Virus record (IMG/VR): IMGVR_UViG_3300037153_000498 | Location: 1 to 30,653 of that record | Length of the DNA: 30,653 nt | DNA from: a virus | Reading direction: 5' to 3' (one strand) | Shown: one piece after another, positions 1-30,653 of the stretch | Layout of the letters: every line of letters starts with the position of its first letter | Position numbering within the stretch: the first letter of the stretch is position 1 | The notes under the pieces: generated by a model | Database searches by the model: none | Told to the model about the DNA's origin: nothing | What the model saw: the letters and a program-made list of their open reading frames with translations, nothing else | Made by a program: the position numbers and the translations under genes

Positions 1-165
1 TGTCCAACTTCCTAGGGCAGGTTTGACCTGACAATGAGGACCGTGCACTTCCGGGCCTGTACCCGATGCGGCTGGCCAACCTGGGTCGGACTCGATGGCG
101 ACCGGATGGCGCTGCTGGTGGTGGCCGACTACGCGCCGATCACAGCAGCGGCCGAAGTGCAGGCC
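1..165. repeat. Terminal direct repeat, left copy (circular overlap)
   Basis: The first 165 bases recur at 30489-30653 with a single difference (G at 39 against A at 30527, synonymous in an Arg codon). This marks a circular molecule or a terminally redundant genome opened inside a gene. A single-base difference is odd for a purely assembly-made overlap and may reflect population variation. Confidence 0.93.
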
Positions 166-1504: not shown

Positions 1505-1866
1505 CCGACATCCTGCAACTGGCGGCATCGGGCCTCAGCATCGGCGAGATAGCCAGGGCTGCCCAGGTGGACCCGGCTACAGCCGTGATCATGATCAACC
1601 AGGCGATGGCTGACCAGCTGAAGCTGAGCCAGGATGAGGCCCGGCTGTTGGAGTCGGTCCACCTGGACATGATTCGGGCAGCGCTGACCCCCTACGCCAT
1701 GCAGGGCAGCGCCGAGGCTGCCCGAATCCTGGTGCGCGTCCACCAGGCCAAAGCCAGTCTTCTCGATCTTGCCTACGTCACCCCTGCTATCCCGGAGGAC
1801 GGGGGTGAAGATGATCTTGACCGAATCCGCCAGGACCGCGAGGCCAGACGTGCGTCCACGGATTGA
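1501..1866 (+). CDS. terS: Probable terminase small subunit
   Basis: A 121-aa protein starting with a helix-turn-helix-like segment (about residues 7-30, with LSIGEIARAAQVDPAT), followed by helical sequence and an acidic then basic C-terminus. Small terminase subunits bind the packaging start site on concatemeric DNA through such an N-terminal HTH and oligomerise through the helical part. It lies directly upstream of the large terminase and overlaps both neighbours: ATGA with the gene before, and 56 bp with the large subunit. Sequence similarity to a named TerS family was not tested, so the call rests on the HTH, size and position. Confidence 0.65.
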   Translation: MTDILQLAASGLSIGEIARAAQVDPATAVIMINQAMADQLKLSQDEARLLESVHLDMIRAALTPYAMQGSAEAARILVRVHQAKASLLDLAYVTPAIPEDGGEDDLDRIRQDREARRASTD

Positions 1867-3226
1867 ACTGGTCCCACCGTGCCGAAGCACGGCAGCCCCG
1901 GAGGTCTTCAGCCTGCTGGACATGCTGGGGATGCCCCTCTACCCCTGGCAGCGCCGCTTCCTGGTCCAGCTGTTCGCTGAAGATGATCATGGCAAGTGGG
2001 CAGCCCCCCAGGCCTGCCTGATCGTTCCCCGGCAGAACGGCAAGTCATACCTGATGGCTGCCGTGATCATGGCCAAGCTGTTTCTGTTCAACGAACAGCT
2101 GATCACCTTCACAGCCCATCGAGTGGACACAGCCCTGGAGGTTTTCAACCTGGTCGATCAGCTGGCCCGGAGTCACCCGGCTACCCGGAAGCGCATCCTG
2201 CGGACCCGGAGGGCTGGCGGCAAGGAAGCCATCGAACTGACCAACGGGCAGCGGTTCAAGATCATGGCCCGGGCCCGGGGCACCGGCCGGGGTTTCGCCG
2301 GTGACACGGTGATCATGGACGAAGCGCTGGAGCTACGGGACCAGAACAGCATCAACGCGCTACTGCCCACCCTGGCTACCCGGCCCAACAGTCAGCTGAT
2401 CTTCGCCAGCAGTGCCGGGGACCGGGGCAGCGTGGTGCTGGCCGGGGTCCGGTCACGTGGCCATGCCGGGGCCCCACGGCTGCTGTTTGTCGAGTATGCG
2501 GCCGACCCGGACGCTCCGCTGGATGATCATGATCAATGGACGACGGCCAACCCCGGCTGCCCGGACCTGATCAGTTTCGACGCCATCCAGCAGGAACTGG
2601 ACAGCATGTCCGCTGATGGCTTCCGGCAGGAACGGCTGGGCATCTGGGCCGATGAACTGAGCCGGGCAGTGATCCCGGCCCAGGTCTGGCGGGACACCCT
2701 GCGGACCGTCCAGACCCTGCCGGAACCGGGCAGGCTGGGGCTGGCTTTCGATGTGGCTACCGACCGGTCCGCTTCATCGATCATGATTGCCTGGAAGGTC
2801 GCTGATCAGCTGATCCACGTCCGGCTGTCCCGGCACGCGGCCGGGGACAACTGGCTGACCGATGAACTGGCAGCCCTGGCCCAGGCCTGGCAGGTCCCGG
2901 TCACCTTCGATGACGCAGGCCCTGCCAGGGACATCGGAGAGGCCCTGAGGCTACGGGGTGTCGCGGTCGAAGCCGTTGGTGGCCGGGACTTTGCCGCCAG
3001 CTGTGCCCGGCTGGTCAGCGGGCTGACCGGTCAGCTGATCACCCATCACCCGGACCTGGCCCTGGACCAGGCAGCCGGGAACGCCACGGCCAGGAACGTC
3101 GGGGAAGCCTGGGCTTTCGCCAGACGCTCCACTTCCGTGCCGATCAGTCCCTTGACGGCAGCTGCCCTAGCGGTCTGGGCCATTGATCATGTCAAGCCGC
3201 CACGGTCCCGGTTCAAAATCTACTGA
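1811..3226 (+). CDS. terL: Terminase large subunit
   Basis: A 471-aa packaging motor with ATPase and nuclease parts. The Walker A-like segment VPRQNGKS places the key Lys at about residue 78. Walker B is VIMDE with Asp170 and Glu171. The C-terminal nuclease-like half has acidic clusters at FDVATDRS and TFDDAGP. The protein would translocate DNA into proheads and cut concatemers. An in-frame ATG exists at 1769, but 1811 is preferred because GGAGG at 1796-1800 and GGTGAAG precede it and because it reduces overlap with the small subunit. Length is slightly short but normal for actinophage TerL. The downstream portal gene begins 12 bp later. Confidence 0.93.
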   Translation: MILTESARTARPDVRPRIELVPPCRSTAAPEVFSLLDMLGMPLYPWQRRFLVQLFAEDDHGKWAAPQACLIVPRQNGKSYLMAAVIMAKLFLFNEQLITFTAHRVDTALEVFNLVDQLARSHPATRKRILRTRRAGGKEAIELTNGQRFKIMARARGTGRGFAGDTVIMDEALELRDQNSINALLPTLATRPNSQLIFASSAGDRGSVVLAGVRSRGHAGAPRLLFVEYAADPDAPLDDHDQWTTANPGCPDLISFDAIQQELDSMSADGFRQERLGIWADELSRAVIPAQVWRDTLRTVQTLPEPGRLGLAFDVATDRSASSIMIAWKVADQLIHVRLSRHAAGDNWLTDELAALAQAWQVPVTFDDAGPARDIGEALRLRGVAVEAVGGRDFAASCARLVSGLTGQLITHHPDLALDQAAGNATARNVGEAWAFARRSTSVPISPLTAAALAVWAIDHVKPPRSRFKIY

Positions 3227-5382: not shown

Positions 5383-5572
5383 CTGATCAATGACCCGGGT
5401 TTGCTCCAGCCACTTCCAAGATCAGCTGCCCGGGGTTTACACTCCAGCCGTTCCCACGTCGGAGCGCGCCCAGCCGGGCCCGTAGCAGCAGCCGGGCCAA
5501 CAGCCCAGCTGGGGGGCTGGCCACCACCTGGGAAGGCCCATCGTGCCCTTCCATGATCAAAAAGGTGGTGTC

Positions 5573-6883
5573 ATGCCGCGCCCGAACCCAGTGCTTCAGC
5601 GGCTGCTGGAGCAGCGAACCGAGCAGGAAACCTTCATCGATCAGCTTCTTGCCCGGGTGCAGGAAGAAGATCGTGATCTTGTCGATGCTGAGCGCTCCAA
5701 CCTGGAGGCTGCCCGGCAGCGGATCACTGAACTGGATGCCCAGATCAGCCCGCTGGAACAGTTCGAAGCCGTCCGGCAGGCCCATCAGGCAGCCCTGCCG
5801 AACGTCCAGCCCCGGCAGCGGCCAGCTGCCAGCGACCAGGCTCAGCGGGCCCCGCTGACCGTCCGTGATCGAGAACAGCACTACACCAGCCCCGGGGCTT
5901 TCGTAGTGGACTTCATCCGGGCCCGGGGCTACCCGGGGATGGGGCAGGCCCCGGATACCGACGCGCGCCAGCGGATCGGGGCTGCCCTTGGCCGTGACCT
6001 GGATGATGTGCTCCAGGCCCGGGCCATCGTCAACCAGACCACGGCCGACACCCCCGGCCTGCTGCCTGAGTTGATCATCGGCCAGATCAACACTGACCTG
6101 GATGCTTCCAGGCCGCTGATCGCCACCTTCGGGGCCCGGCCACTCGGGGGCATCCCGGGCAAGAAGTTCAACCGGCCGGTGGTCACCCAACACACCCAGG
6201 TAGGTGAGCAGACGGCAGAGAAGACCGAACTGCCCAGCCGACAGCTGAAGATCGATTCCGTGGAATGGTCTAAGCGAACCTTCGGCGGGGCCCTGGATGT
6301 GTCCCGGCAAGACATCGACTGGACCAGCCCGGCAGCCTGGGACGCCATCCTGACTGACCTTCAGGGCATGTACGCGGCCTTCACCGATGACGAGTGCGCC
6401 CAGGACTTCGCTACGGCTGTCACCACCGAAGTGCCGATCAGCGACCCCACGGACATCAAGGCCTGGGTGCAAGCGCTCTACGATGCAGCGGCGGCAGCGG
6501 CTGTCGGTGGAGTCCAGGGCCGGGCCACGGCTGCCCGGCTTCCGAACCACATCTGGGTGAGCATCGATCAGTGGGCTGCCCTGGGTGTGGTGATCGACTC
6601 CATCCGGGTCAGCGGGGTGCAGGCCCTGGCCCCCGGTGCGTCCAGCCCGACCACTTTCGCCGGAGACATCCTGAACGTGGCCAGGACCGTGGTCCCGGGC
6701 TTCCCAGAGGGAACGGTGATCGTCGGCCGGACGGACAAGTTCGAGGTCTATGAGGAACGGATCGGGCTGCTGTCGGCCATCGAGCCGAAGCTGCTGGGTG
6801 TCGAGATTGCCTATGGCGGTTATGCGGCCTGGGGCCCTCTCGACGCCACGTGCTTTGCCAAGGTGGCACCAGCGGGCCCTTAG
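5573..6883 (+). CDS. Major capsid protein, HK97 fold, with N-terminal delta domain
   Basis: A 436-aa shell protein. The first 90 or so residues are charged and helical (LLEQRTEQETFIDQLLARVQ and on), matching the scaffolding delta domain that the adjacent protease removes. The remainder fits the HK97 fold: LPELIIGQI, a central FGGALDVSRQDIDWTSP region, and the C-terminal GGYAAWGPLDATCFAKVAP strand. The ATG at 5573 is chosen over the GTG at 5543 because AAAGGTGG precedes it at proper spacing. The gene ends in a TAG placed directly behind a GGGCCCT slippery heptamer and a stable hairpin. A fraction of ribosomes should therefore make a longer form of about 509 aa. Confidence 0.92.
   Translation: MPRPNPVLQRLLEQRTEQETFIDQLLARVQEEDRDLVDAERSNLEAARQRITELDAQISPLEQFEAVRQAHQAALPNVQPRQRPAASDQAQRAPLTVRDREQHYTSPGAFVVDFIRARGYPGMGQAPDTDARQRIGAALGRDLDDVLQARAIVNQTTADTPGLLPELIIGQINTDLDASRPLIATFGARPLGGIPGKKFNRPVVTQHTQVGEQTAEKTELPSRQLKIDSVEWSKRTFGGALDVSRQDIDWTSPAAWDAILTDLQGMYAAFTDDECAQDFATAVTTEVPISDPTDIKAWVQALYDAAAAAAVGGVQGRATAARLPNHIWVSIDQWAALGVVIDSIRVSGVQALAPGASSPTTFAGDILNVARTVVPGFPEGTVIVGRTDKFEVYEERIGLLSAIEPKLLGVEIAYGGYAAWGPLDATCFAKVAPAGP
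6874..6880 (+). promoter_or_regulatory. Programmed -1 frameshift slippery site in capsid gene
   Basis: The heptamer G GGC CCT fits X XXY YYZ (GGG, CCC, T) exactly in the capsid reading frame and is followed immediately by the capsid stop TAG (6881-6883). Slipping back one base leads into the open -1 frame that encodes a recognisable domain. A perfect hairpin begins 5 nt downstream, the usual distance for a stimulator. Confidence 0.82.
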
Positions 6884-17644: not shown

Positions 17645-17700
17645 CGGTGGCTTCCTTCATCGGGGGAACGAACTGAGGGGCAGCCTACCGACTGGGATGC

Positions 17701-17730
17701 TCACTGGTGCTCACTGGTGCTCACTGGTGC
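17701..17730. repeat. Three tandem 10-bp repeats (operator array 1)
   Basis: TCACTGGTGC occurs three times head to tail (17701, 17711, 17721), preceded by GC so that TGCTCACTGG is also repeated. The 10-bp period places each copy on the same face of the helix. The array covers the expected transcription start of the leftward ParB-like operon. The motif in inverse orientation, AGTGAGCA, forms a second array at 21041-21078. Confidence 0.88.
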
Positions 17731-17891: not shown

Positions 17892-17923
17892 ACTGAGCGG
17901 CCAGCCGTCCCGGCAGGTGGAAT

Positions 17924-17948
17924 GATCAAGGAAGGCAGTGGAGACATG
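17924..17948 (+). promoter_or_regulatory. Start-associated sequence, integrase copy
   Basis: GATCAAGGAAGGCAGTGGA ends just before the integrase ATG at 17946. The same 19 bases precede the ATG at 25838, more than 7 kb away. The AAGGAAGG part serves as ribosome binding site, which decides the start at 17946 rather than the ATG at 17922. Confidence 0.7.
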
Positions 17949-19067
17949 GCGTGGACCGAAAGCAAGATCATCGACGGGCAGCCCTGGTATCGGGGCCGGT
18001 GGCGGACGGCCGGGAAGAAGCAGCAGACCGACTGGCTGCCCAGCATCCATCAGGCGGGCTGGCTGGCCGAACTGGCGGAAAAGGGGGAGATAGACCTGAC
18101 CGATGCGGATCGGGTAGCTGACCTGGACCCCAGCCCCGATCCGACCCTGGCCCAGTTCACCCAGCAGTGGCTGGACCGACAGCGGGCCAACGTGCCGGAC
18201 AGCCTGAACATGAACACCTGGAAGTCCTACCGGGGCCGGGTGACTCACTGGACCGGTTCCCCCATCGGCAGGAAGTTGATCAAGAATCTGACCTGGGCCG
18301 ACATCGACAGCTGGCGGCAGCAGCTGGACGGCAGGGCCAGCACGAAGAATCAGGTGATCAAGCTACTGGAGACTGTCTACCGGGATGCCTATCGGCGGGG
18401 CCTGGTCCGGGACCTGATGGCCATCACTGACCAGCGACGCGCCAAAGGCCGGGTAAAGCACGGCTGGAAGCTGGAGGACTGGGAAGAAGACCAGCTGCTG
18501 GCCGCTGCCGAGGACGATCCGGACATGAAGCTGATGATCATGCTGGGTCTGGATGCTGGCCTCAGATGGGGTGAAGTGGCAGCCCTGAAGGTGGGGGACG
18601 TGCGGCTGAGCGACGCCAGCCCCTACCTGATGGTCATGGAGACGATCACCAACGTGACCGAAGTTGGCACGGTCAAGGGCACCAACCATCGTGGTGAGGA
18701 TGAGGAACCCCGCGAGATACCCCTGAGCCCCCGGCTGATCCAGGCCCTGAAGCCCAAGCTGGCAGAAGCCCGGCTGCGGGGTGGCAGGCAAGCCCATCTG
18801 TTCCAGGCGCCCTGGGGTGGGACCGTGCGCTACGCCACCTGGAATCGCTACTTCACCAAGATCAAGATGGCGGCCTTTGGTCACGATGGGGTCCGGCTGA
18901 AGGGCCACGACCTTCGGCGCACCTTCGCTTCCAAGATGGAGGCCCGGGGGCTGTCCGGGTCCCAGGTCCAGTACCTGCTGGGCCACCAGTCGCTGAGCAC
19001 CACCCAGCTGTATCTGAAGCTGGGGGCCAGCGACCGGGCAGCCATGGCCAAGGCCGTGGCCGCATGA
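17946..19067 (+). CDS. int: Tyrosine integrase
   Basis: A 373-aa site-specific recombinase that would insert and excise the phage genome at attB/attP. The catalytic set is complete: Arg207 in GLRWGEVAAL, His321 and Arg324 in GHDLRRTF, His347 in LLGHQSLSTT and Tyr356 in QLYLKL. The N-terminal part (about residues 60-150) matches an arm/core-binding SAM-like domain (QWLDRQRANVPDS, RVTHWTGSPIG). The ATG at 17946 is chosen because of the AAGGAAGG site. It is followed by a strong hairpin terminator. It makes the phage temperate. The attP site was not located, but the AT-rich stretch upstream is a candidate. Confidence 0.95.
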   Translation: MAWTESKIIDGQPWYRGRWRTAGKKQQTDWLPSIHQAGWLAELAEKGEIDLTDADRVADLDPSPDPTLAQFTQQWLDRQRANVPDSLNMNTWKSYRGRVTHWTGSPIGRKLIKNLTWADIDSWRQQLDGRASTKNQVIKLLETVYRDAYRRGLVRDLMAITDQRRAKGRVKHGWKLEDWEEDQLLAAAEDDPDMKLMIMLGLDAGLRWGEVAALKVGDVRLSDASPYLMVMETITNVTEVGTVKGTNHRGEDEEPREIPLSPRLIQALKPKLAEARLRGGRQAHLFQAPWGGTVRYATWNRYFTKIKMAAFGHDGVRLKGHDLRRTFASKMEARGLSGSQVQYLLGHQSLSTTQLYLKLGASDRAAMAKAVAA

Positions 19068-27971: not shown

Positions 27972-30287
27972 ATGTCCAGCGAACAGTTGGCGCTGACCCT
28001 ATGGGACCTGGGGCTGATGCCGCTGCCGCTGTCGGTGGATGGCAGCAAATCCCCGGCCGTCCCCCGGTGGCGGCAGTGGCAGCACACCCGGGCCACTCGG
28101 GAAGATGTGGCCCGGATGTTCCGGATGATCGAGCATGACGGCCTGGGGCTGATCACCGGCGAGGCCTCCGGGGGCCTCCAGATGATGGAACTGGAAGGCC
28201 GGGCCCTGGCCGAGGGACTGCTGAACCAGCTGGCCGCCGCCTTCCATGTCATCGATGAAGATCAACTGTGGGAGAAGATCAGCAAGGGCTACGTCGAACT
28301 GACCCCCGGGGGTGGACTGCACTACTACTTCCGGGTGATCGACGGCAGCCAGCGGGGCAACACCAAGCTGGCCCGGAGGCCAGCCACCCCGGAGGAACTG
28401 GCCGGGAAGCCGGACGACAAGATCAAGACCTTGATCGAGACACGCGGTCAAGGTGGGTTCACGGTGATCGCCCCCAGTGCCGGACGATCCCACGACACCG
28501 GTGGGGCCTGGCGAGTGGTGACCGGGGACCTGGCTACGCTGCCGGAACTGACCGCCGCTGAGTGTGATCTTGTCTACGCAGTCGCGGCCGGGCTTGATCA
28601 GATGCCCGAACCGGAATCTGCCCCTTCCCCGCCGACCGTGAACGGCAGCGATGATCAACGGCCTGGTGATCAGTTCAACGACCGGGCCAGCTGGATCGAT
28701 GTCCTGGGCCCGCACGGCTGGCAGGTGTTCAAGCGCGGGCCGGGCCAGCTGACCTACTGGCAGCGGCCGGGAAAGACCCATCCGGGGGTGTCGGCCAGCA
28801 CGGGGCTCAATGATCATGATCGACTGTATGTGTTCAGCACAGCCACCCAGTTCGAACCACAGCGGCCCTATGACAAGTTCGGGGCCTACGCGGTTCTCGA
28901 TCATGGTGGGGACCTTCGGGCAGCTGCCCGGGCCCTGAAGTCGGAAGGCTATGGATCGGGGCAGCCCGGCCAGCTGCTGCCCCGACTGGTGATCCCTACC
29001 CCGGTCCCGGGGGAGTCAGCCAACCCTGAAGGCCAGCTTGACCTATGGGACATCCATTCAGTGTTCGGCACCATCCGGGACTTCGCACACAGCCGGGCCA
29101 CGTCGGCCTGGGCAGTGCTCGGGGTCTGCCTGGTCCGGGTGCTGGCCCAGACTCCGCCGTGGGTAGTGCTGCCGCCGATCATCGGAGGCCCGGCCAGTCT
29201 CAACCTGCTGGTCGGGCTGGTCGGCCCGTCCGGGGTCGGGAAGTCATCGGCCATGGCGGTTGCCGACGAAGCGTTGATCATCGATGATCAACGGTTCCTG
29301 GTCCGGCCGTTGGGCAGTGGTGAAGGAATCAGCCGGAGCTACCGGCAGTGGCGGCCCGGAAGCAAGGGTGAGCCAGGCTACTACGAAGTGATCACCGATG
29401 CCGTGATCTTCCGGGCCAGCGAAGTGGACGTGCTGACATCGCTGATGGACCGGGCCGGGGCAACCCTGGGCAGCCAGCTGAAGGTGGCTTTCGATGGTGA
29501 TCAACTGGGATTCGCCAACGCCACGGCTGAACGTCGGGTCTGGCTGGAACCGCATAGCTACCGATTCTGTCTGGTGGTCGGGGTCCAGCCGGAGAAAGCC
29601 CTGGCACTGTTCGCTGATTCGGCCGGTGGCACACCACAGCGGCTGCTGTGGCTGGATGCGCTGGACCGGGGCATTCCGGATCAGCTGGAGGCCCCGGAAC
29701 CGGTGCGGCTGGTCGATCAGGAATGGGTCCGGCTGGGTAGCCGGGTCGTGCTGTCGGTCCCGGCCGACGTGGTGTCATTGATCAAGTCCAGTCACCTGGC
29801 CCGGGTCCGGGGTGACCTGGCCGGGGTGGACGGCCATGACCTGCTGGTCCAGCTGAAGGTGGCCCAGGGGCTGGCCTTCCTGGTCGGCCAGCGAGTGATG
29901 ACCCTGGAGCACTGGGCCTGGGCCGATCAGGTGATGGCGCACAGCAGACAGACCCGGGATGGCATCCAGCAGGCCCTGGAATCGGCCAGGAAGGGCAGGG
30001 AGGACACCAGGGCAAGGGCCGATGCCAGACGGGCCCTGGTGGTCCAGGAAGGGCTGGAGGCCCGGTCGGTGGCCCGGGTAGTCCGGGTGATCAAGACCTA
30101 TCTGGGTAGGAACGGTGGCGAGGCCAGCCGATCCGAAGTCACCCGGGCCCTGGCTGGCCGGGATCGAGAGCACCTGGACGATGCGCTGGAAGCGATGATC
30201 ACTGCCGGGGTGATCACGGTCAGCATGGCTGATCCCCCAAAGCCCGGCCGGGTCAAGAAGGTCCAGCTGATCAGGCTGTGTCATTGA
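27972..30287 (+). CDS. Primase-polymerase / P-loop ATPase fusion (replication protein)
   Basis: A 771-aa protein. The N-terminal 210 or so residues look like a bifunctional primase-polymerase (AEP) domain: KSPAVPRWRQWQ, LGLITGEASGGLQMMELEGR, TPGGGLHYYF and IETRGQGGFTVIAPS in the usual order. A middle region (about residues 240-330) follows. The C-terminal half is an ATPase with GPSGVGKS (residues 418-425, Lys424) and AVIFRASEVDVL as the Walker B-like strand. It would prime and unwind phage DNA. The motif I acidic residues read as MELEG rather than DxD/E, so polymerase activity needs checking. It is the last early gene, followed by the palindrome and iterons. Confidence 0.8.
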   Translation: MSSEQLALTLWDLGLMPLPLSVDGSKSPAVPRWRQWQHTRATREDVARMFRMIEHDGLGLITGEASGGLQMMELEGRALAEGLLNQLAAAFHVIDEDQLWEKISKGYVELTPGGGLHYYFRVIDGSQRGNTKLARRPATPEELAGKPDDKIKTLIETRGQGGFTVIAPSAGRSHDTGGAWRVVTGDLATLPELTAAECDLVYAVAAGLDQMPEPESAPSPPTVNGSDDQRPGDQFNDRASWIDVLGPHGWQVFKRGPGQLTYWQRPGKTHPGVSASTGLNDHDRLYVFSTATQFEPQRPYDKFGAYAVLDHGGDLRAAARALKSEGYGSGQPGQLLPRLVIPTPVPGESANPEGQLDLWDIHSVFGTIRDFAHSRATSAWAVLGVCLVRVLAQTPPWVVLPPIIGGPASLNLLVGLVGPSGVGKSSAMAVADEALIIDDQRFLVRPLGSGEGISRSYRQWRPGSKGEPGYYEVITDAVIFRASEVDVLTSLMDRAGATLGSQLKVAFDGDQLGFANATAERRVWLEPHSYRFCLVVGVQPEKALALFADSAGGTPQRLLWLDALDRGIPDQLEAPEPVRLVDQEWVRLGSRVVLSVPADVVSLIKSSHLARVRGDLAGVDGHDLLVQLKVAQGLAFLVGQRVMTLEHWAWADQVMAHSRQTRDGIQQALESARKGREDTRARADARRALVVQEGLEARSVARVVRVIKTYLGRNGGEASRSEVTRALAGRDREHLDDALEAMITAGVITVSMADPPKPGRVKKVQLIRLCH

Positions 30288-30308
30288 TCATGTCCGGACA
30301 TGATCAAT
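30283..30308. repeat. 26-bp perfect palindrome after the primase gene
   Basis: The sequence from ATTGATCATGTCC to its exact inverse covers 30283-30308 with no spacer. It contains two TGATCA sites and a TGTCCGGACA centre that resembles the iteron half-sites nearby. It overlaps the primase stop codon by a few bases and may act as a terminator, an origin cruciform or a binding site. Confidence 0.85.
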
Positions 30309-30332
30309 CCGGGTCATTGATCACTAGGGATG

Positions 30333-30495
30333 TTGGACAGTTGGACATGTTGGACACGCTAGGTGAGAAAAATGATCAATGACCCCATGTCACTAACATG
30401 CCCCTGACAAGGATGAATATGAATGAACCTCCACTCCGCGTAGCGCGCGAGGATGGTTTGACACCGACGGGTGTTGGACATGTCCAACTGTCCAA
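30333..30495. repeat. TTGGACA / TGTCCAA iteron group, candidate origin or operator
   Basis: TTGGACA occurs at 30333, 30341, 30350 and 30474; its inverse TGTCCAA occurs at 30481 and 30489 (the latter also at 1-7). The 30474 and 30481 copies join into the 16-bp palindrome GTTGGACATGTCCAAC (30473-30488). The spacing of 8-9 bp in the first group is typical of iterons bound by a replication or partition protein. The gap from 30288 to 30412 holds no gene. Confidence 0.78.
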
Positions 30496-30514
30496 CTTCC
30501 TAGGGCAGGTTTGA
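30419..30514 (+). CDS. Possible 31-aa leader peptide
   Basis: A short ORF starts at ATG 30419 (alternative 30413) with CAAGG before it and encodes MNEPPLRVAREDGLTPTGVG and a further 11 residues, ending 7 bp before the ATG of the Cys-rich gene at 30522 (equivalent to 34). The reading frame passes through the iteron palindrome. Close spacing suggests a translated leader, but the size makes chance occurrence possible. Confidence 0.35.
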   Translation: MNEPPLRVAREDGLTPTGVGHVQLSNFLGQV

Positions 30515-30653
30515 CCTGACAATGAGAACCGTGCACTTCCGGGCCTGTACCCGATGCGGCTGGCCAACCTGGGTCGGACTCGATGGCGACCGGATGGCGC
30601 TGCTGGTGGTGGCCGACTACGCGCCGATCACAGCAGCGGCCGAAGTGCAGGCC
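30489..30653. repeat. Terminal direct repeat, right copy
   Basis: A near-identical copy of 1-165 (one mismatch, 30527 against 39). It joins the last gene of the early operon through the iteron region to the first late-side gene, so on a circle the two ends of the window are contiguous. Confidence 0.93.
30522..30653 (+). CDS. 5' part of the Cys-rich small protein (cut by window end)
   Basis: This is the second copy of the first 44 codons of the gene at 34-417, in the same frame and with the same CxxC pair. One codon differs silently. It runs off the end of the window because the contig overlaps itself, so it should not be counted as a separate gene. Confidence 0.85.
   Translation, partial: MRTVHFRACTRCGWPTWVGLDGDRMALLVVADYAPITAAAEVQA

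Follow-up and report, generated by a model that had tools for sequence, protein, structure and literature searches.

The palindrome TGATCA is present 137 times in the 30,653 bp of virus record IMGVR_UViG_3300037153_000498 (the window, which is the whole record; 63.9% GC), at 4.47 copies per kb or about one per 220 bp. This exceeds both codon usage (106 copies in genes, against 51) and what the avoidance of other words would displace into it (122 against 76–78), bearing out an earlier note's suggestion of a positive drive behind the word. RGATCY, CGATCG, GATCTC and most GATCTG have been purged from the same genome, TGATCA has been gained de novo, and the encoded proteins carry its imprint. Textbooks lead one to expect phages to shed palindromes; iteration of TGATCA is the opposite of the avoidance expected of viruses facing restriction enzymes.

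Our preferred reading, held tentatively and at somewhat short of an even chance, is that this phage lineage has TGATCA as its highly iterated palindrome (HIP), the product of a host methylation-linked drive on a GATC context that the hosts' enzymes spare. The enzymes, methylation and benefit we infer would act as follows: restriction enzymes of the host or hosts would purge the sibling GATC words, leaving TGATCA as the form they do not cut; TGATCA would probably be the target of a host methyltransferase with GATC or TGATCA specificity; and a process linked to that methylation would add copies, either by selection for marked (protected) DNA or by repair biased toward the marked word, the mechanism that Elhai put forward for HIP1 of cyanobacteria (PMC4390886). 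The agent would be the host's, because the phage has no recognizable methyltransferase: searches of the window with PF00145, PF01555 and PF02086 found no DNA methyltransferase gene, and a phage-encoded enzyme was accordingly dropped as a candidate. Among 15 records scanned for the same three families (the window, phages with iterated palindromes, and similar ones), only L191 was positive, for PF01555.

The gene content (terminase, portal, protease, capsid, tail, integrase, exonuclease, RusA and primase/polymerase) is that of a tailed, temperate actinophage-type virus, the integrase (17922–19067, + strand; phrog_1) being the reason to regard the phage as probably temperate. Three tandem copies of the 10-bp unit tgctcactgg lie upstream of the integrase gene, at about 17698–17729. 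Positions 1–165 (+ strand) are repeated directly at 30489–30653 (165 bp, 1 mismatch), so that the contig probably closes to about 30.49 kb and the genome is probably complete. At the DNA level, the first 25 kb of the window matched none of 50,697 phages; for the large terminase (1769–3226, + strand), identity to the best phage records listed is about 34%. Two contigs, L001 and L011, are near-identical to the window and differ at too few places to be of use in comparisons. The major capsid protein gene (5543–6883, + strand), 57% identical in L150 and 56% in L012, served as the query for relatives.

The excess, its imprint on proteins and the origin of the sites

Base composition predicts 3.3 copies of TGATCA, about 40-fold fewer than observed, and first-, second- and third-order Markov models predict 9.4, 36.7 and 64.5. 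The genome-wide excess claimed in the earlier note is thus real, as are the nine sites that it had counted in the large terminase gene, in a run from 1984 to 3041 (1984, 2064, 2100, 2310, 2524, 2530, 2568, 2803, there given as 2802, and 3036). Its claim that the word bends codon choice also withstood the codon-shuffled control that it had itself named as a refuter: in 29 curated genes TGATCA occurs 106 times, against 51.0 ± 4.3 after synonymous shuffling within genes and 12.9 after shuffling of codon order. The corresponding figures for the 12 genes with PHROG hits are 66, 31.3 and 8.8. Under within-gene synonymous shuffling of 30 genes TGATCA is the most over-represented 6-mer (106 against 51.9, z 12.4), and under a strand-symmetric 4-mer Markov model it is the top residual word of the window (z 9.0); with strands merged on a mechanical tiling it ranks second of 2080 strand-symmetric 6-mers, behind the overlapping GATCAA (where no curated list was used, genes were tiled by a mechanical choice of ORFs).

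Two features expected of a HIP are present: the palindrome is far over expectation genome-wide, inside genes as well, and its one-base deviants pile up at the outer positions, with the core kept. CGATCA (92) and AGATCA (50) are above expectation; core deviants are near or below synonymous expectation, the exception being TGAGCA (15 against 10.7). An expectation built from 5-mers gives 139 copies (125.5 once the missing GATC classes are allowed for), and its agreement with the 137 observed indicates that the T on the left and the A on the right contribute independently of each other.

The protein sequences are themselves enriched in residue pairs able to hold TGATCA, as follows from the distance between the codon-order (12.9) and synonymous (51.0) expectations; unlike the window, 13 comparison loci have similar values for the two (ratio at most about 1.6, in L023). 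Dipeptides, in the step from 13 to 51, and codon choice, in the step from 51 to the 106 observed, have therefore both been bent. The pairs raised include Met-Ile (2.7-fold), Ile-Met (2.6-fold), Asp-His (2.5-fold), Ile-Lys (2.4-fold) and Asp-Gln (2.0-fold); Ile-Arg (0.96), Asp-Pro (0.90), Asp-Arg (0.77) and Ile-Ile (0.72) are not raised.

The sites are mostly recent de novo gains at weakly conserved protein positions, reached by synonymous and amino-acid changes together. In eight genes compared with 10 relatives, the 185 places homologous to TGATCA sites have a GATC core in 28 cases, TGATCA in 6 and CGATCG in 7, and their commonest distance from TGATCA is three of the six bases; residues at the sites are shared with relatives in 33% of comparisons, and elsewhere the share is 47%. 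CpG decay, which would turn CGATCG into TGATCA by two transitions, was dropped as a main cause: CCGG is raised, and CGATCG stands at only those 7 of the 185 places. In its favor were the window's low CpG (0.74), its high CA/TG (1.31) and its lack of CGATCG.

Purged words and displacement

GATC itself occurs 375 times in the window. Its density, 12.2 per kb, is unremarkable next to the 4.8–11.5 per kb of the 21 actinophage and prophage loci used for comparison and the 14.2 of L081, a 47% GC contig described below. Its contexts are very unequal. Codon shuffling predicts 43.9 RGATCY and 11.7 CGATCG among these copies, and there are none of either; GATCTC is likewise absent (17 expected) and GATCTG occurs 5 times (34 expected), whereas GATCAA (97 against 35) and GATCTT (54 against 30) are raised. 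Asp is written GAT in 46% of cases where C follows and in 45% of all cases. The idea that GATC as such is favored is contradicted by these missing contexts and by GAT being no commoner before C, and GAC cannot be said to dominate strongly elsewhere. The ten GAT-CTT places on which the idea had been based do exist, each within 3 nt of a GATCTT site (28 in all, 18 of them read as Asp-Leu). However, the 65 Asp-Leu pairs are written GAC-CTG 33 times, GAT-CTT 18 times and never GAT-CTG, GAT-CTC or GAT-CTA, so that GAT-CTT is the mark of avoiding GATCTG and GATCTC. Where CA follows, the Asp codon is GAT 35 times out of 42 if T precedes it and 17 out of 20 if C does, but only 3 out of 10 if G does. 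Arg codons in the window are also uneven: CGG accounts for 56% and CGC for only 12%.

Restriction-site avoidance is a known phenomenon in phages (cited in PMC4841201), and the window resembles such cases in that 12 of 37 testable hexamer palindromes, among them GCCGGC, CCGCGG, CTGCAG, GGATCC, GGTACC, CGATCG, GACGTC and GTCGAC, reach no more than a tenth of their expected counts. It differs in that TGATCA moves the opposite way and exceeds what avoidance alone puts out. The earlier statement that restriction would cause avoidance is too simple for a genome that avoids twelve palindromes and iterates another. Several non-palindromic words (CCGCCC, CACCGC, GGAGCC, CAGCTC, GAGATC) are nearly absent as well.

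One possibility is that displacement is the whole story: so many words are forbidden that TGATCA, the remaining legal GATC context, fills up with no benefit of its own. This we regard as unlikely, although displacement contributes. In simulations by synonymous codon swaps in which increases of 75 avoided 6-mers were forbidden, the expectation for TGATCA rose from 57.5 to 76.0, or to 78.3 with codon-junction dinucleotides kept, against 122 observed: displacement accounts for about a third of the codon-level excess and falls short as sole cause. The same simulation also falls short for GAGCTC in the relatives L207 (55 observed, 20.5 simulated) and L220 (50, 18–19), and for GGATCC in mycobacteriophage Akoma (80, 26–30). 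Avoidance and iteration do go together across loci. Over 83 loci, the larger the avoided fraction, the stronger the top palindrome tends to be (Spearman 0.30, p 0.006), and all four with a top-palindrome z > 8, a threshold set after the data were seen, are among the eight strongest avoiders. A second scan served as a replicate: of its 57 new loci, 13 shorter than 7 kb and 7 duplicate contigs were dropped, and over the remaining 37 the coefficient is 0.56 (p 0.0003). But the avoiders L210, L219 and L225 have no strongly iterated palindrome, and the nearest relative, L150, avoids only 1 of 36 palindromes while having a milder TGATCA excess (20 observed, 11.5 synonymous, 4.7 codon-order). Most of the compared TGATCA sites, moreover, did not replace a GATC word, as only 28 of the 185 homologous places have the core.

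Relatives, hosts and precedents

A capsid-profile scan gave 348 confirmed relatives, of which 80 were retrieved; near-identical L001 and L011 aside, none of these exceeds 1.27 TGATCA per kb (the maximum, in L150). Other palindromes are iterated instead. GAGCTC occurs 55 times in L207 (11.6 expected; 4.5 per kb) and 50 times in L220 (16 expected), both with many palindromes absent; the second scan added CTCGAG together with GAGCTC in L236 and L265, CTCGAG in L247, and GCCGGC in L268 and L230. GCCGGC is among the most avoided words of the phage family, and is iterated at 7.8 per kb in L268 and 7.3 in L230. Over 119 loci (like the set of 83, without loci under 7 kb; L010 is in the 83 and not in the 119), the top 6-mer class is palindromic in 20, compared with 3% of classes, a binomial p of 8e-10 that is too small because the loci are related. 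Some of this surplus is a matter of arithmetic, because any half-site bias enters the count of a palindrome twice. Measured against the strand-symmetric 4-mer model, a palindrome leads in 11 of the 119 loci, and among these eleven the window's TGATCA comes second, after L247.

AGCT in some of these phages is nearly confined to GAGCTC: 55 of 58 copies in L220, 57 of 70 in L207, 64 of 83 in L236 and 73 of 93 in L265. In L012 + L142, a related phage, AGCT is absent (43 expected). From the sequences, this pattern suggests an AGCT-cutting enzyme, with GAGCTC shielded by an overlapping mark. GATC is nearly purged (0.6–1.8 per kb) in L218, L219, L211, L189, L212 and L220, and its frequency within the one capsid family spans 0.6 to 14 per kb. 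A scan of 2.9 million viral contigs for three TGATCA copies close together found at least 120 stretches; apart from the window's kin, L081 is the one long standout among the matches listed, where a few short loci (1.3 to 5.5 kb) also ranked high. This metagenomic viral contig of 13.5 kb has 42 TGATCA (3.1 per kb; 36 in the genes compared against 11.4–12 synonymous), and its dipeptide expectation for the word is doubled.

A broader possibility, on the doubtful side, is that many actinophages each carry their own lineage-specific, restriction-type iterated palindrome, as a self-mark set by the methyltransferase repertoire of the host. If so, absent words would record the sites that hosts cut and iterated words the sites that they protect; a word would be gained as other palindromes are lost, strongly enough to rewrite proteins, and L220 would be a nested case, its inner site open to cutting wherever the outer one lacks methylation.

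Word usage in phages often tracks that of the host, and the phage might simply have been ameliorated to an unsampled host with a TGATCA excess of its own. In favor of such a host signature, L150, a suggested isolate genome, reaches 1.27 TGATCA per kb. TGATCA is also mildly over-represented in marine Synechococcus, where it is described as a modest or weak word (Elhai, 2015; PMC4390886). However, the "host chromosomal signature word" proposed in the earlier note was not seen at the phage's density in any of 396 Actinomycetota genomes drawn evenly: the highest density, 1649 copies in 2.8 Mb (about 0.59 per kb, G352), is 7–8 times below the 4.47 per kb of the phage. Pieces of six of these genomes, mostly high-density picks, have at most 18 TGATCA in 20 kb, and at the codon level the word is modestly in excess of synonymous expectation (in G352 15 against 6.4, in G055 14 against 3.9). 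Each relative in the phage family, furthermore, has a different word. Taken with these counts, a host signature is improbable, though a host beyond the sample might match. Searches for the host itself gave little: none of 49 pattern matches was confirmed in a capsid-profile search of genome contigs, a terminase search of genome contigs returned only 9 distant prophages, a capsid search of 396 genomes gave one match, in a 5-kb contig, and the window has no tRNA and no usable att signal.

The closest precedents are the GGATCC of B3 mycobacteriophages and the HIP1 of cyanobacteria; in the open-access literature, searches for palindrome excess in phages with methyltransferases, or for iterated palindromes, found nothing closer. 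Siranosian et al. (2015; PMC4841201) describe an excess of GATC and GGATCC in subcluster B3 and offer no explanation for it. As in the window, these are actinobacterial phages with one GATC-core palindrome in excess genome-wide, but the word is GGATCC, absent from the window. In the B3 phage Akoma, where GCCGGC, GGCGCC and CCCGGG are at about zero, GGATCC occurs 80 times against 22.9 after synonymous shuffling. The iteration is weaker (1.74 per kb, compared with 4.47), there is no dipeptide imprint (codon-order 20, synonymous 23), and the flanks cooperate (1.74) as those of TGATCA do not (0.98). Next to its terminase gene, Akoma (L148, JN699006.1, 1–2717) has genes for two ParB-like nucleases and for a PAPS reductase-like protein; together with the GGATCC excess, these gene similarities hint at a sulfur-type DNA modification. 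For the window, a phosphorothioate idea was set aside, with no match to such a family among the window proteins scanned and nothing direct in the literature.

HIP1 and its alternates in cyanobacteria, for which methylation-directed repair has been proposed, likewise include a GATC-core palindrome far over expectation with deviants mostly at outer positions (Elhai, 2015; PMC4390886). The difference is that HIP1 is described there as the property of a bacterial genome with a matching methyltransferase, whereas the window is a phage with a 6-mer and no such gene found. The preferred reading of TGATCA as a HIP gains from the recurrence of other type II-like palindromes (GAGCTC, CTCGAG, GCCGGC, GGATCC) and from the density of the word both inside and outside ORFs. 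Against it are the independent flanks, which a strictly palindromic recognizer would not predict; the one-off neighbors, which have no clean repair signature, transversions being as depleted as C-to-T changes; and the absence of phage-like densities from the sampled actinobacterial genomes, HIP1 being a host property. If the link to methylation is correct, the methyltransferase specificities of hosts, and hence the hosts, could be read from phage sequence, and such phages would offer a new system in which to test why HIP1 exists in cyanobacteria, a question still unsolved.

Placement of the sites and remaining alternatives

TGATCA is concentrated near the contig ends, with 13 copies in the first kb and 8 in the last 0.65 kb. 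The densest stretch (359–1079; 15 copies in about 720 bp) covers the tail of an HNH-like ORF (452–1060), upstream of the terminase genes; a second (30196–30378; 7 copies) covers the end of the primase/polymerase gene and the non-coding region that follows, and the two would adjoin if the genome is circular. Within the second lies a 24-bp perfect inverted repeat (30284–30307), read from the sequence, with TGATCA in each arm (TTGATCATGTCC/GGACATGATCAA). These features are what might be expected if TGATCA were a much-repeated binding site for some protein of host or phage, be it a nucleoid, segregation or packaging protein or a repressor with stoperator-like sites. Elsewhere, though, spacing is near random (variance/mean 1.14, largest gap 1350 bp), and the word is scattered across coding DNA: 123 copies lie inside ORFs (28.7 kb), compared with 14 in the 1967 bp outside them (7.1 per kb). 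The independent flanks and the use of other restriction-type palindromes by related phages also speak against a binding site, and we give the idea a low probability. The stoperators of L5-type mycobacteriophages are about 13 bp long, asymmetric, and present in tens of copies in short intergenic gaps. They share with TGATCA the repetition of one short word across a temperate actinophage genome; the 137 copies in the window differ in being a 6-bp palindrome mostly inside genes.

Least probable is a neutral repair bias, in which very-short-patch or mismatch repair of the host would turn near matches into TGATCA with no benefit to the phage. The weakly conserved places at which the sites occur would fit, as would the scarcity of TGATTA/TAATCA (1 against 8.8 expected in the window, 0 against 6.8 in L081), but the transversion neighbors TGATAA/TTATCA are equally depleted (1 against 10.1), ATTA and ATAA are rare in general, and C-to-T depletion is inconsistent in the CTCGAG phages. 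Very-short-patch repair was rejected: one-base neighbors are purged in several cases, but the C-to-T depletion that such repair should produce is not consistent.

The non-coding DNA after the 24-bp inverted repeat contains TTGGACA/TGTCCAA repeats in both orientations (30330–30500), and the region from 30284 to 30500 is, on its sequence, a possible candidate for an origin, a cos site or a terminase-binding region. TGATC also stands directly before the ATG of nine candidate gene starts (1079, 3239, 4444, 7850, 9320, 21295, 21555, 25012 and 27284), where it fills the gap between ribosome-binding site and start.
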